Assembly: GCA_017545585.1 (NCBI GenBank) | Contig: JAFWMK010000018.1 | Coordinates: 1 to 42,967 of the forward strand | DNA: 42,967 nucleotides | Origin: Candidatus Saccharimonadota bacterium | Lineage (GTDB): Bacteria > Patescibacteriota > Saccharimonadia > Saccharimonadales > Saccharimonadaceae | Direction: 5' to 3' | Shown here: piece by piece, positions 6,101 to 40,553 of the stretch | Position numbering within the stretch: the first letter of the stretch is position 1 | Layout of the letters: the number at the start of each line of letters is the position of its first letter | The notes under the pieces: generated by a model | The model's database searches: none | What the model was told of the DNA's origin: nothing | What the model saw: only the letters and a program-made list of their open reading frames with translations | Translations under genes and position numbers: made by a program

Positions 6101-6114
6101 CAAAATAAAAAAAG

Positions 6115-6171
6115 CAAAAACACCTTTCTCGACTCGCGTCTTCGCAAGAGGGTCTCGAAAGGTGTATTTTG
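6115..6171 (-). terminator. rplU terminator containing a palindromic-element core
   Basis: Just after the rplU stop the minus strand forms a long hairpin. Its arms are CAAAATACACCTTTC (6171-6157) and GAAAGGTGTTTTTG (6128-6115), which match except for one extra base. A T-rich tract follows, so it can act as an intrinsic terminator. The 28-nt loop (6129-6156) begins TCGAC and ends TCGCAAGAGGGTCTC on the plus strand. Those ends recur in the element inserted in ileS at 35510-35663. Confidence 0.7.
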
Positions 6172-6173
6172 TT

Positions 6174-6482
6174 TTACTTAATACTAGTGATTTCGATTTC
6201 ACTATATTTCTGGCGATGACCGGTTTCGGTATGGACGCGTTTCTTGCTGTGATAGCGAATAACGCGAATTTTGTCGCCTTTGACCTCTGGGGTCTTGACT
6301 TTAGCTGAAACCTTTACGCCTTTTACTGTCGGAGTACCAACGGTGGTTTTGTCGCCGTCGATTACGAGTAAAGCATCAGTTTCGAGCTCTTTGGTTCCTG
6401 CCGGGAGGAGGTCCACCCGTAGGGTCTCTTTTTCCTCAACGAGATATTGCTTCCCGCCAACGAGGATAACTGCTTTCTTCAT
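6174..6482 (-). CDS. rplU: 50S ribosomal protein L21
   Basis: The 102-residue protein has the usual length for L21, a 23S rRNA-binding protein. It starts MKKAVILVGGKQYLV, has the GTPTVKGVKV region and ends with the conserved KIRVIRYHSKKRVHTETGHRQ patch that contacts rRNA. AAAGGA lies upstream of the ATG. The usual partner rpmA (L27) does not follow; after the terminator comes parA. Confidence 0.95.
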   Translation of the reverse strand: MKKAVILVGGKQYLVEEKETLRVDLLPAGTKELETDALLVIDGDKTTVGTPTVKGVKVSAKVKTPEVKGDKIRVIRYHSKKRVHTETGHRQKYSEIEITSIK

Positions 6483-34525: not shown

Positions 34526-34702
34526 AGAAAAATAAGTAATTTTATTTGCAATTGATTTCGCGCCAAGAAGATTTTTCGAATTTCTTCACGAAAATTTTTG
34601 CGTCTTGCGCCGGATGGGGGCCACGCTGCAAAAATTTTCTAAAATTCTCAAAATCCTCTTGGGCTCATCAAAATGCAAATAAAATTACTTACTTTTTTCT
34701 AA
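34526..34702. repeat. ~175-bp imperfect palindrome containing the ileS stop codon
   Basis: The arms (about 34526-34605 and 34622-34702) match at roughly 80-85% over 75-80 nt. A perfect run AAGTAATTTTATTTGCA lies at the outer ends and AAAATTTTTGC near the centre. The loop is short and GC-rich. The ileS stop codon lies in the right arm, and T-rich sequence follows the hairpin, so it may end ileS transcription. Apart from this and the promoter, I see nothing else in 34380-34684. Confidence 0.75.
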
Positions 34703-37699
34703 TGAGATTGTGACGTTTTCGCCGTTTATTTTGGCGATTTCGTCGTGAGCGTAGTTGCCATCTTTGACAATTTCGTCGGCAAGGACTTCAGTTTTGACTA
34801 AATCTAGGTGGGCTGCTGGAATGTCGGCGGTGAGGGAGAGTTTGATATGGTCGTCCATATTGAGACCGGCGTGCTTTCTGGCGGATTGGATAGCGCGGAT
34901 AAGGTCGCGGGCATAGCCTTCTTCCCTTAATTCTTTGGTAAGAGTTTTGTCTAATTTGAGTTCTTTGCCGTTCTTGACTGATTTGACGTTAACTTCTTCT
35001 TTGATGATTTGCTCATAAAAATCATCTAGCTTGTCGCCGCTATAAACGAGACTTAAGAGCGGTTGGCGGACTTTGATCTGCTCTTCGGTGTCGGACTTTT
35101 GCATCCTGAGCGCAAGGGCATCGGTAATAATCTGGCGGGTTCTAGCCATGTTTTCAAGAATGTTTTCGCCGTCTTTGTCTTTTAGAGCTTCTGGCCAATC
35201 TAGTAGATGAACAGATTTATCGGTCATGGTGATTTTTTGGTAAAGCTCTTCGGACAAGAACGGGGTAAATGGCGCGAGGATGATGGCGGTGAGCTTTAGC
35301 ATGCTATAAAGCGTACTAAAGGCGGCCATTTTGTCTTTTTTATTGTCGTTTTTGCTAAAGCGACGGCGGGAGCGGCGGACGTACCAGTTGGAAAGATCAT
35401 CAATAAACGGAAGAACGCCTTCGAGAGCTTTTGGAATGTTGTATTCTTCCATACCGGTGGTGATTTCGTCTCGGAGCTCGTAATAGCGCTCGGTGATCCA
35501 AAGATCTAGAGGATTGGAAATGCTGCTTGCTCGACGCGCTTGCGCTGGCCCGTCGACCCTTAGGGTCGTCCGCGTCCCAAGGGGCGGTCTGTTACGGGCA
35601 GCGCTTCGCTCTTCTTGCTCCCGTTGTCGCAAGAGGGTCTCGCAAGCAGCATTTTCCAATCCTTCTGAATCGAGACCTTCGACCTCGGCGTATGTAGTGA
35701 AGAAATCGTAAACGTTCCAGAGCATAGCGAGTTTGCGACTAACGTCGGAAACGTCTTTGTCGAGCATGGCAAAGTCTTCGCCAGACATGACTGGGCTAGA
35801 TAATAGCAAAAATCTGTAGGCGTCGGCGGAATATTGATCCATAAGAACATTTGGGTCGGTGTAGTTGCCGAGAGATTTGCTCATCTTGCGACCGTCGTTC
35901 CCCGCTAAAGTACCGGTGGTGATGACGTTTTTGTAGGCGTTCCTATGACCCTTTTTGGTTTCTTCGCCAAAGGCGCCGATTTCGGCTAAAGCGGTATTGA
36001 CCGCATGAACATAGTAGAACCAGGCACGAACTTGGCCGACGTATTCTACGATAAAATCGGCTGGATAGTTCTTTTCAAACTTTTCTTTGTTCTCGAATGG
36101 ATAATGAAGCTGAGCGAACGGCATGGAGCCGGATTCAAACCAGCAGTCTAGGACTTTTTCGATACGTTTGAAATGCTCGCCGTCGATATCGAACTCGATC
36201 TGGTCTACCCATGGGCGATGATAGTCTTCTAGCTCTACGCCAGAGAGGTCTTTTAATTCTTCGTAAGAGCCGACGACTTTGACCGAGCCTTTGTCGCCTT
36301 TCCAAACTGGCATGGCGGTAGCCCAGAAGCGGTCGCGGGATAAATTCCAATCTGGGGCGGCTTCGATATTTTTGGCAAAACGACCATGTTTGAGATACTC
36401 TGGGAACCAATTGATGTTTTCATTCTCCTCTAGCATCAGCTGCTTTTGGTCTTCGATGTCAAAGAACCAAGACGGGAAAGCGCGATACATAATACGTTCT
36501 TTTGAGCGCGGGTTGAATGGGTATTCGTGCTTTATATATTCGATCTTATAAATAATTCCCTTTTCTTCGAGACATTTGGCGATGAATTTGTTTCCGGCCC
36601 AAATTTGGATGCCGTGCTCGTCGGTGTCTCTCACGCCTAGCGCGTGAAGCTTGTCGGCATATTCTGGCAAATAGTAGCCGTTTTCGTCTAGAGTATCGAC
36701 AAAATCAATTTCCTTTTCGTGGTTTTTATAAAGTTCGTAATCGTCTTCGCCATAGGCTGGGGCGATATGGACGATGCCGGTGCCTTCTTCTTCTCCGACA
36801 AAATCGGCGGTAAAAACTCGGCAAGTAGTGCCATCGAGAGATGTATACTCTAGACCTGCTAGGTCTTTTCCTTTCATAGTCTGCTCTGGTTTGACTGAAT
36901 CAAAAATTTGTTCAGCACGCTTTGTGGCGACTATGAGCTTCTCGCCGTCTATATTATATATACCGTATTCTAAGGTAGGGCTGACAGCTAAGGCGCGGTT
37001 GGCCATCAGGGTCCAAGGGGTGGTGGTCCAGGCTAAGAATATGAAATCTTTGGATTTGAACTTGACGTAGGCGGATGGGTCGGTGACGGTTTGGTAGGCG
37101 TCGTTATCCATGGTGACTTCGGCCTTGGAGACAGGAGTGGCGAATTTGGTGTCATACATGAGAACTTTGCGGCCTTCGTAAATCTTGCCAGCTTCATATA
37201 ATTTTTTAAAGGCCCACCAGACGGACTCCATAAAATCTTTGTTCATGGTGCGGTAAGGATGATCAAAATCTACCCAACGACCACAACGGTCTATGGTACT
37301 TCGCCACTCTTCGGAATTTGCCACCATGGATTCGCGGGCTTTTGTAATATAATCTTCTAGGCTCCACTTGGTGCCGATGTCCCTTCTATCGGTGATGCCA
37401 AGCTGTTTTTCGACAAAATTCTCGGCTGGAAGACCGTGACAATCCCATCCCCATCTTCTCTCTACTCTATATCCTCTCATAGTCCAAAAGCGCGGGACGG
37501 CGTCTTTTACGATAGAGCTAAGTAGCGTGCCGTGATGCGGCATGCCGGTGATAAACGGCGGACCGTCATAAAAAACGTAAGATTTGTCCTCTGGTCTCTC
37601 TTTGATGGATTGCTCAAAAGTTTTGTGCTTTTTCCACCAATCAATGAGAGCCTTTTCATATTCTATCGCCTTCCGGCGTTCTCCCGCTCTATATTTCAT
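34685..37699 (-). CDS. ileS: isoleucyl-tRNA synthetase with in-frame palindromic insertion
   Basis: The 1004-residue enzyme charges tRNA-Ile. The class I HIGH box appears as PHHGT in GPPFITGMPHHGT, and WGWDCHGLPAE follows. The editing domain comes next, then KMSKS in DGRKMSKSLGNY, and the anticodon-binding domain from SNPLDLWITERYY. The layout suggests the eukaryote-like IleRS2 type. About 40 extra residues (CETLLRQREQEERSAARNRP onward) separate the catalytic part from SNPLDLW and are encoded by a palindromic element at 35510-35663. TATAAT preceded by TGG ends exactly 6 nt before the ATG; there is no Shine-Dalgarno. Confidence 0.95.
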   Translation of the reverse strand: MKYRAGERRKAIEYEKALIDWWKKHKTFEQSIKERPEDKSYVFYDGPPFITGMPHHGTLLSSIVKDAVPRFWTMRGYRVERRWGWDCHGLPAENFVEKQLGITDRRDIGTKWSLEDYITKARESMVANSEEWRSTIDRCGRWVDFDHPYRTMNKDFMESVWWAFKKLYEAGKIYEGRKVLMYDTKFATPVSKAEVTMDNDAYQTVTDPSAYVKFKSKDFIFLAWTTTPWTLMANRALAVSPTLEYGIYNIDGEKLIVATKRAEQIFDSVKPEQTMKGKDLAGLEYTSLDGTTCRVFTADFVGEEEGTGIVHIAPAYGEDDYELYKNHEKEIDFVDTLDENGYYLPEYADKLHALGVRDTDEHGIQIWAGNKFIAKCLEEKGIIYKIEYIKHEYPFNPRSKERIMYRAFPSWFFDIEDQKQLMLEENENINWFPEYLKHGRFAKNIEAAPDWNLSRDRFWATAMPVWKGDKGSVKVVGSYEELKDLSGVELEDYHRPWVDQIEFDIDGEHFKRIEKVLDCWFESGSMPFAQLHYPFENKEKFEKNYPADFIVEYVGQVRAWFYYVHAVNTALAEIGAFGEETKKGHRNAYKNVITTGTLAGNDGRKMSKSLGNYTDPNVLMDQYSADAYRFLLLSSPVMSGEDFAMLDKDVSDVSRKLAMLWNVYDFFTTYAEVEGLDSEGLENAACETLLRQREQEERSAARNRPPLGTRTTLRVDGPAQARRASSISNPLDLWITERYYELRDEITTGMEEYNIPKALEGVLPFIDDLSNWYVRRSRRRFSKNDNKKDKMAAFSTLYSMLKLTAIILAPFTPFLSEELYQKITMTDKSVHLLDWPEALKDKDGENILENMARTRQIITDALALRMQKSDTEEQIKVRQPLLSLVYSGDKLDDFYEQIIKEEVNVKSVKNGKELKLDKTLTKELREEGYARDLIRAIQSARKHAGLNMDDHIKLSLTADIPAAHLDLVKTEVLADEIVKDGNYAHDEIAKINGENVTISLEKSK
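35510..35663. mobile_element. palindromic element inserted in frame in ileS
   Basis: Inverted arms of 21 and 22 nt (35510-35530, 35642-35663; outer end AGGATTGG, inner end TGCTGCTTGC) match except for one missing A. They enclose a 111-bp GC-rich core that starts TCGAC and ends TCGCAAGAGGGTCTC. The core contains smaller hairpins (CGACCC/GGGTCG; ACGGGCAGC/GCTCCCGT). There is no stop in the ileS frame. The core ends recur at 6129-6156. It behaves like the in-frame palindromic elements of Rickettsia, though no sequence kinship is claimed. Confidence 0.75.
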
Positions 37700-37714: not shown

Positions 37715-37772
37715 TATTTTGAGTTTTATATGGAGTCTGTAGTTTATTCAACATACTTTTTGCGCCTTTCTG

Positions 37773-37866
37773 CTCGCGCTGCTGGCGCGAGTACTAGCAC
37801 TAGCTAGAGTGCACACAGCGTGCACTTCCGCTCTCTTGGGGGCGCTCCGCGCCCGCCAGGAGAGCG
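37773..37866. repeat. cluster of three GC-rich hairpins
   Basis: CTCGCGC/GCGCGAG (37773-37791), AGTGCAC/GTGCACT (37808-37826) and CGCTCTC/GAGAGCG with an inner GGCGC/GCGCC (37829-37866) follow each other. They lie between the FISUMP gene stop and the ileS promoter. The block is much richer in GC than its surroundings and has no T-run, so it is not an ordinary terminator. Confidence 0.65.
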
Positions 37867-37901
37867 AATTCGGGAGCGCGAGGGACCGATGAGCGGCGAC
37901 G

Positions 37902-40553
37902 CTACTGCAGTACGCAACGTACTGAGCTACCGTCCCTCTTATTGTAGCTGTAGACATCGGCATTGCTACTATAGAAATTTAGGTAGTAAGCGCCGGTACT
38001 ACTGCCGGCAGTAGACGACCAATAGTAGCCGTAGCTACCACCATCCTCGAACAACGAACGACTGTAGCTGCCGGCATAGACGCCGAGGAACGGGCTAGCG
38101 GTTAAGGTAGCGCCGGTAGTGTAAGTAGATATTAATGTATTAAATTCTGCTCGGGTAGGTAGCCTCCAACCTTTTGGACAGATGTCTGAAGTAGCATCGC
38201 CGCTTGATATGGATGCACCAGTACCAGCAGTAGCGGCTGCGTAGGAATAGTAGGAATAGCATGGGCTGCTACTACCGCATGATGTGCTGCCGCTATTATA
38301 GACGTAGGCGGTAGCATTGTCTGAGAAACCAGAAGTGGAGGAAGCTGGGAGGGTGTAGTTTGAAGAGACATTGGAAGTGGCAGGAGTTAAGGTAGTGCCT
38401 CCAGCAAGATCTAGATTCCTAGTCATCCAGACATTACCATCTGGGAGTTTGGCGACAGTGTAATCTTGTCCGTCACGAGAGTCTGTAAGAGTCTTAGTTT
38501 CACCAGTTGCCATAGCCGAAGCATCGCTAGCAGTGAAATCTTGCATGGTTGGCTTGAGTACGCAACGTACTGAGAGACCGTACCTCTTACTGTAGCTGCG
38601 GACATAGGCACTGCTACTATTGAAACCTAGGTTGTAAGCACTGGTACTACTGCTGGCAGTAGACGACCAGTAGTAGCCGTCGCTACCACCACTAGCGAAC
38701 GACGAACTACTGTAGAAGCCGGCATAGACGCCGAGGAACGGACTGGCGGTGAGTTTGTCACCGATGTTATAGCTAGACATTAATGTAATAAACTCTGCTT
38801 GAGTTGGTAGTCTCCAACCTTTTGGACAGATGTCTGAAGTAGCATTGCCGCTTGATGGGCTAGTACCGGCAGTAGCAGCTATGTGGGAATAGTAGGAATA
38901 ACATGGAGAACTACTAGAACATGATGTACTACCACCATTGTAAACGTAGGCGGTGGAGTCGTCTGAAAAGCCAGAAGTAGAGGAAGCTGGGAGAGTACAA
39001 TTATTGCCGAGATTACACCCAGCAGAGACATTGGAATCTGCAGGGGTCAAAGTAGTACCACCGGCAAGATTTAAGTTCTTGGTCATCCAGACATTGCCAT
39101 CTGGGAGTTTGGCGACAGTGTAATCTTGTCCATCACGTGAGTCTGCAAGAGTCTTAGTCTCACCCGTTGCCATGGTTGCAGCATCAGTAGCAGTGAAACC
39201 TTGCATGGTTGGCTTGAGAACACAGCGTATAGAGTATCCGTTGCGCCGAGAGCTGAAAACGGCCGGATTGACAAACGACGTACGGAGAAACAGGCGGTAC
39301 ATATTAGTACTATTATACCTCGTAGAGGACCAATAGATGCCGTAGGAGCCATGATATTCCAGTGCGCCATCGTAGAAGTAGCCAGCAAGGGCGAAGGCTG
39401 CACCACCTTGGGAGACTGGAGCTAGCATTTTGACATCAGTATTATAGATATTATATAGGGCTTGGAATTCTCCAGAGTCTCCACCAGTAGGAAGTCTCCA
39501 GCCTTTTGGACAAATATCATATTGGGCATCACTTGAATTGGAGCTTGCACAAATAGTTCCAGCTGAGGCTGCACAGTAGTTATAAAGTGTACCGTATGAA
39601 GTTTGGCTAGTAGCATCTGTGCCAGAGACTGGGATATATTCAGCGGCAGTGTAAGTAGCTGTACCGCTAGTTATCTTATAGTTACTGAAGGTAGAAGCGG
39701 AGATAGTAGTAGAAAGATTGGTATTAGCCGAAGTGAGATCTGAAGACAAGGTAGTAGCACCGAGGTTAAGGTTGTCTACCATCCAGACATTACCATCCGC
39801 AAGTTTGGCGACAGTGTAGTCTTGCCCGTCACGAGAGTCTCTGAGGGTCTTAGCTTCACCCGTTGCCATGGCTGCAGCATCAGTAGCAGTGAAATCTTGC
39901 ATGATTGGGATATTAAGCACGCAACGCACACTAAACCCGAACCCCTTAAAGTAGTTGAACACACTGGCGCTCGAACTATTGAAGTACAAGTTGAGCGCAT
40001 CCGACGAACTGCCGGCCGCAGAAGACCAATAGCGGCCGTGTTCCTCGCCATTGGAGAAGCTACCATTGTAGTAAAGGCCGCCGTAAACGCCGAGGAAAGG
40101 CGAAGCAGTTAAGGTAGCACCAGTAGTATAGCTACTTCTAAGTGTATTAAATTCTGCCCCGGTTGGCAGCCTCCAACCTTTTGGACAGATGTCTGAAGTA
40201 GCATTGCCGATTGATGGGTTAGTACCGGCAGTAGCAGCTGCGTAGGAATAGTAGGAGTAACAACCCGGTGATGAACAATCAGTTCTACCACTATTATAAA
40301 CGTAAGCGGTGGAGTCGTCTGAAAAGCCAGAAGTAGAGGAAGCTGGGAGAGTACAATTACTACCGAGATTACATCCAGCAGAGACATTGGAGTCTGCTGG
40401 AGTCAAAGTGGTGCCACCAGGAAGATCAAGGTTTCTGGTCATCCAACAAAGACCATTAATTTCTGCAGTAGTATAGATTATACTTTTATAAGTATCGTTA
40501 CCACGATTGTCATACATATTACTCCCACAATTAGCCATAGTGGCAGTTTGCAT
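37902..40553 (-). repeat. four tandem FISUMP coding repeats (~650-700 bp each)
   Basis: Units run approximately 40553-39905, 39902-39207, 39206-38547 and 38546-37902. The segments encoding MQDFTA, SRDGQDYTVAKL and CPKGWRLPT are nearly identical in DNA across units, while the segment before each YWSS motif varies strongly. This is a substrate for homologous recombination between copies. Confidence 0.8.

Follow-up and report, generated by a model that had tools for sequence, protein, structure and literature searches.

The hairpin that follows rplU in this Saccharibacteria genome (minus strand, positions 6111-6175 of the window, the whole 42,967-nucleotide stretch that we analysed) is probably a truncated copy of a small, apparently non-autonomous mobile hairpin whose family has multiplied within one genus. 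We hold this reading jointly with the view that the arms of each copy are made by fold-back copying of local sequence. The initial annotation saw that this hairpin shares its core ends with an insert in ileS and took the two to be members of a dispersed family, with a fixed core flanked by an inverted copy of whatever sequence it entered. The observation is confirmed and the interpretation supported overall, with three amendments: the cores form a structured, covarying family instead of repeating one fixed sequence, the short form looks like a deletion derivative, and most copies lie in frame in genes.

The two hairpins lie 29 kb apart. On the minus strand, read 5' to 3', the end of rplU is followed by AAAACAAAATACACCTTTC-GAGACCCTCTTGCGAAGACGCGAG-TCGA-GAAAGGTGTTTTTGCTTTTTTT and then by parA. 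The gene itself, encoding ribosomal protein L21 (6174-6482, minus strand), is 97% identical to its orthologue in the nearest relative and was matched in 25 of 30 genomes. Its hairpin has a shortened 28-nt core at 6129-6156 (TCGACTCGCGTCTTCGCAAGAGGGTCTC in the window; GAGACCCTCTTGCGAAGACGCGAG followed by TCGA on the minus strand), which lacks the part we call hairpin B. The 5' arm (6157-6175, minus strand) overlaps the A-rich arm of the ancestral terminator and pairs, with one indel, with the 3' arm (6111-6128, minus strand), after which comes the terminator T-run. These arms are inverted copies over 24 nt at 79% identity, and the region folds at -29.6 kcal/mol (z -5.1 against shuffles). The ileS insert (z -9.3 against shuffles) sits within a 1004-codon open frame (34685-37699, minus strand). 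It has a full-length core that starts with TCGAC and ends with TCGCAAGAGGGTCTC (35531-35641, minus strand, nested insert included), and it was matched by the structure model at 35523-35649 with 72 bits; the frame remains open throughout. Its arms, at 35510-35530 on the gene's 3' side (AGGATTGGAAATGCTGCTTGC on the plus strand) and 35642-35663 on the 5' side (both minus strand), are again inverted copies with one indel (27 nt at 85% and 11 nt at 100%), and their sequence is unlike that of the rplU arms. Both elements have GAGACCCTCTTGCGA...TCGA ends: one end of the core is common to them over 15 nt, and TCGA stands at the other. The window has two occurrences of GAGGGTCTC, against 0.13 expected from shuffles. 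An arm scan of the window returned exactly three long-arm hairpins (34550, ileS and rplU) against 0, 0 and 1 in shuffles. The first of these, directly 3' of ileS (34528-34696), has another core (GTCTTGCGCCGGATGGGGGCCACGCTGC) and long AT-rich arms, and resembles either a member of another private-arm family or a large terminator. Short GC-rich palindromes cluster at 37760-37960, around the start-proximal side of ileS and the end of the neighbouring 1669-aa gene.

The family is hard to see by sequence alone. In a genome-wide motif search of the type that the initial annotation proposed, the literal pattern TCGAC-N(10-40)-GAGGGTCTC matches rplU and nothing else; the family is detectable only by a shorter motif and a structure model. 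Exact matches to the 14-mer CGCAAGAGGGTCTC number three in the 549-kb genome; beyond rplU and ileS, one lies in a P-type ATPase gene (C12:5487). Allowing up to two mismatches gives seven matches across the whole genome, against two for a reversed-pattern control, and one of the two-mismatch matches belongs to another element, in leuS. Eleven aligned elements served to build a covariance model, which found 18 copies in this 549-kb MAG and 278 across 22 members of the genus (1 to 34 each), which bears out the predicted dispersal; the same model found no copy in any of the 14 genomes that represented other genera. When sampling was widened to 246 genomes of the order, 32 were positive (27 genus members and five genomes from two sister genera in the family) and 214 had no copies. 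Among named genomes, the closest relatives are Saccharibacteria MAGs, of which many derive from the guts of goat, sheep, deer, buffalo and yak. Because it is truncated, the rplU copy is not itself recovered by the model. A search of the window and two element loci with Rfam covariance models matched only a tRNA. A viral origin was considered and rejected: three exact motif matches were present in viral contigs, one of them in a contig of phage-like genes, and none matched the structure.

The moving part is a core of about 76 nt that comprises GA, a short stem, hairpin A, AGCG, hairpin B with CCCGT-RRCG-ACGGG, and a final GA. The 11 aligned elements have a three-way-junction fold in common, with double-sided changes in 19 of 24 pairs. 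Across 138 matches, 95.5% of cells were paired and the covariation score was 0.704, compared with 0.189 for shuffled and at most 0.13 for slid controls. This alignment was fitted to the model, and the score should be read with that in mind. Some cores have a further insert of 35-36 nt (CGCCCCTTGGGACGCG) at the tip of hairpin B, found at 35555-35590 (minus strand; 36 nt) in the ileS core of the window and at L012, L083, L088, L096, L014 and L102. Near-identical inserts occur in the polA-like and obg cores of the same genome as the ileS copy, and the nested insert seems to move independently of the core.

Approximately 120 of the 136 distinct extracted copies fall within open frames no shorter than 450 nt; 74 are in the sense and 46 in the antisense orientation. 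The host genes are mostly housekeeping genes, which from their sequence contexts we take to be ileS, leuS, valS, a polA-like gene, trmD, obg, tsaD, lepA, der and mnmA. The frames are observed to be open; that gene-borne inserts are translated as an in-frame linker is inferred. Among 93 aligned ileS sequences, 31 have an insert at one loop and 62 do not; not all of these inserts belong to the core family, and a few genomes entered the set twice. Other repeats were also found in these genes. A second private-arm family, with a conserved CCGCAGGCGYCAGCAGTC ... GACGACTGCGMGCCGAGGAC core, lies in frame in ileS (L024 at 1406 and 3917; L039 at 2368; also L263 and L280), and a third, small family (GGACACGCTCAAGGGCGCTCGCCC...) has inverted local arms (L036 at 2977; L164 at leuS site 1). 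Another in-frame ileS repeat, ACGACGGGTGACGCC...GCAGGACCCGTCG, is present in L254, L263, L264 and L266, twice in the ileS of L264 and twice in variant form in that of L266. Essential enzymes of these Saccharibacteria often bear recently acquired hairpin inserts that keep the frame. With hundreds of natural insertions and empty relatives to compare, the unknown movement of such palindromic elements becomes directly testable.

The claim that the arms are private to each site held when copies with nearly the same core were compared. We found 36 pairs of elements whose cores are no more than three edits apart, including five identical pairs, each within one genome. The outer arms of these pairs mostly differ at about 10 of 17 positions, which is the random level, while the left and the reverse-complemented right arm of one element differ at only 3.3. 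The two arms of an element form an inverted repeat some 20 nt long, with a median arm score of 16.5 against 0.5 for swapped arms. For example, three identical 76-nt cores stand on three unrelated stems in genome G004, and one ileS gene of G005 has two near-identical cores with different stems. The same pattern could arise if the elements were old and fixed in place, with cores homogenised within a genome by gene conversion and arms drifting with compensating changes under selection for the hairpin. That identical cores were found only inside single genomes would fit such a history, as would the occupation of the same protein loops in several species, the tolerance of G.T pairs (expected under selection on a folded strand) and the fact that arm imperfections do not increase with core divergence. 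We nonetheless consider it unlikely. Copy number ranges widely among members of one genus, and the ileS loop (site 3) is empty in two-thirds of the aligned copies. Elements in the same loop differ in where they are inserted, in orientation and in core class, and conserved host codons lie inside the arms.

Insertion with copying of the flank would account for these codons. In ileS, the empty L250 has GAGCTCGAAAATACTT exactly at the position of the 5' arm of L016/L258, whose 3' arm is an inverted copy of that 5' arm with one base missing. At L290, the 5' arm in ileS is the conserved TAC-GCC-GAG block (Tyr-Ala-Glu; YAE) and the 3' arm is its inverse. Empty relatives thus show one arm to be native and the other an inverted copy of local sequence, as had been proposed from the window alone. 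With respect to the target-site duplication of MITEs, the copy of the flank seen in the ileS comparisons is inverted and not direct; short direct repeats were not searched for systematically. The native arm is on the gene's left in TrmD and on its right in LeuS site 2 and Obg, and a fixed rule that would make the element strand's 5' arm the native one was rejected, as the native side varies by site. Most of the empty and filled ileS sequences compared are from relatives with 75-87% DNA identity, and at this distance a site that has lost its element could be mistaken for one that was never filled, as may have happened for L255/L261 against L270.

A core might instead enter the tips of existing hairpins, in which case the arms would be inverted repeats that were already there. 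The terminator hairpin that relatives have at the rplU site is consistent with this, and so is the location of nested inserts, seven of eight of which occupy the tip of hairpin B (the model is biased toward seeing those). In genes, the empty ileS sites do not support pre-existing inverted repeats as targets. Inverted repeats are not in excess at empty site 3 (4.36 vs 4.24, p 0.35) and only slightly so at empty site 1, against scores of about 16 for element arms, and we regard this account as very unlikely. Arm score and imperfections are equal in the youngest and the oldest copies, so gradual growth of the arms after insertion is not supported either. From the lack of excess at empty site 3 and the age-independent quality of the arms, we conclude that the arms arise at insertion.

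The rplU copy has a more particular history. The relatives have plain, short-loop terminators in the same gap, e.g., AACAAAATAAACCC-GAAA-GGGTTTATTTTGTT, which retain AAACAAAATA at the position of the rplU 5' arm, and the T-rich stretch and TTTATTTTG found 3' of the element's 3' arm are the same in relatives. That this is an ordinary terminator, with an unrelated insert in ileS and a motif common to both by chance, draws on those relatives' terminators for its one support and is refuted by the genome-wide family. It is scarcely credible given the three exact matches to the 14-mer in 549 kb, the covariation of the family and a core whose first 24 nt are those of a full element. The full element in question is the copy in the ATPase gene of the same genome, with which the rplU core is identical over 24/24 nt at the 5' end before passing to TCGA. 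About 47 nt, including hairpin B, are therefore missing, and judged by sequence the short form looks like a deletion derivative from the same subfamily as the ATPase-gene copy. The initial annotation had left it undecided whether a short version became a terminator or entered one. The plain terminators of the relatives bear out the link to a terminator, and the likeliest history, inferred from one genome and its relatives, is that a core entered an existing terminator, gained its copied arm and later lost hairpin B, which would leave a terminator-like hairpin. The present element has a stable stem followed by a U run (GGTGTTTTTGCTTTTTTT) and meets the criterion for an intrinsic terminator. Judged from sequence alone, it would be a clear example of a mobile hairpin that has become part of a terminator.

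How the arms are made may be reflected in their imperfections. On the element strand, G.T mismatches outnumber A.C mismatches by 89 to 28, both in sense (47:16) and in antisense copies (37:9), while on the coding strand the two are balanced (56:53). The excess persists outside the part of the arms covered by the model (58:20). Copies on the same contig agree in orientation in 90 of 103 cases (permutation p <5e-5), and the element strand has a negative GC skew, clearest in antisense copies (43/46), although skew indicates the direction of the fork only by proxy. Taken together, mismatch bias, shared orientation and skew point to a single-stranded, fork-linked step, which suggests replication-linked fold-back copying. 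At several sites, a core has inserted and some 20 nt of one target flank have been copied beside it in inverted orientation, so that each element stands on a private stem. We infer that a growing strand bearing the core would snap back at the replication fork and copy its own flank, often forming G.T mispairs and slipping by single bases, before rejoining the template at a short match. Such synthesis would explain the arms, the mispairs and the slips. Against a simple one-strand version, the native flank is set by the site and not by the orientation of the element. The model also has no explanation for bulges that cluster at fixed distances of about 7 and 14 nt; their use in frame repair is unlikely because intergenic copies bear them too. 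Searches of genus genomes for Y1 transposases and reverse transcriptases identified no mobility enzyme. Y1 transposases were absent from all 18 genus genomes searched and were rejected as the mover. Reverse transcriptases (frames of about 370-560 aa, e.g., G007:C7:14348 and G012:C31:3598) occurred in 10 of 15 genus genomes, and nine genomes of other families had none. They were not found in G003 and G004, which have recent copies, and are not favoured as the driver. Whether this is a new mode of DNA movement, in which a hairpin core inserts at forks and builds a private stem by fold-back copying of its target without a transposase or terminal repeats of its own, we can propose only tentatively, and we would not yet favour it over its negation.

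A limited literature search returned no papers on palindromic elements in Saccharibacteria. Like bacterial MITEs, the copies are short, non-autonomous and dispersed, but their terminal inverted repeats are not common to copies and no parent transposase was found. REP/BIME elements, which are associated with RAYT (Y1) transposases, resemble them as dispersed hairpins with strand-specific behaviour and differ in that the Saccharibacteria copies are mostly intragenic, have private arms and occur in a genus in which 18 genomes had no Y1 transposase. Template switching between short inverted repeats has been reported to homogenise arms, invert spacers and change several neighbouring codons (PMC8604942). 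Our fold-back proposal is related to it, as arms are made alike in both; in Saccharibacteria, however, the arms accompany a mobile core, have a near-constant length and arise without a strong inverted repeat to begin with. The closest known kind is the Rickettsia palindromic elements (and those of Wolbachia), small palindromic repeats of about 150 bp found in frame in unrelated metabolic genes (PMC10969869). The Saccharibacteria copies are likewise in frame in genes of unrelated function. A difference is the lack of peptide similarity to the known families of these elements: five insert peptides had no NCBIfam or Pfam match up to E = 1, and the DNA of Rickettsia palindromic elements was not compared. 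In the Rickettsia elements, the arms are common to the copies of a family, whereas the outer arms of identical-core copies in Saccharibacteria are at random distance from one another. Consequently, we regard the Saccharibacteria family as a variant of this kind and not a member of it, set apart by its phylum, by arms copied from the target around a core of about 76 nt, and by the conserved, covarying three-way fold of that core.
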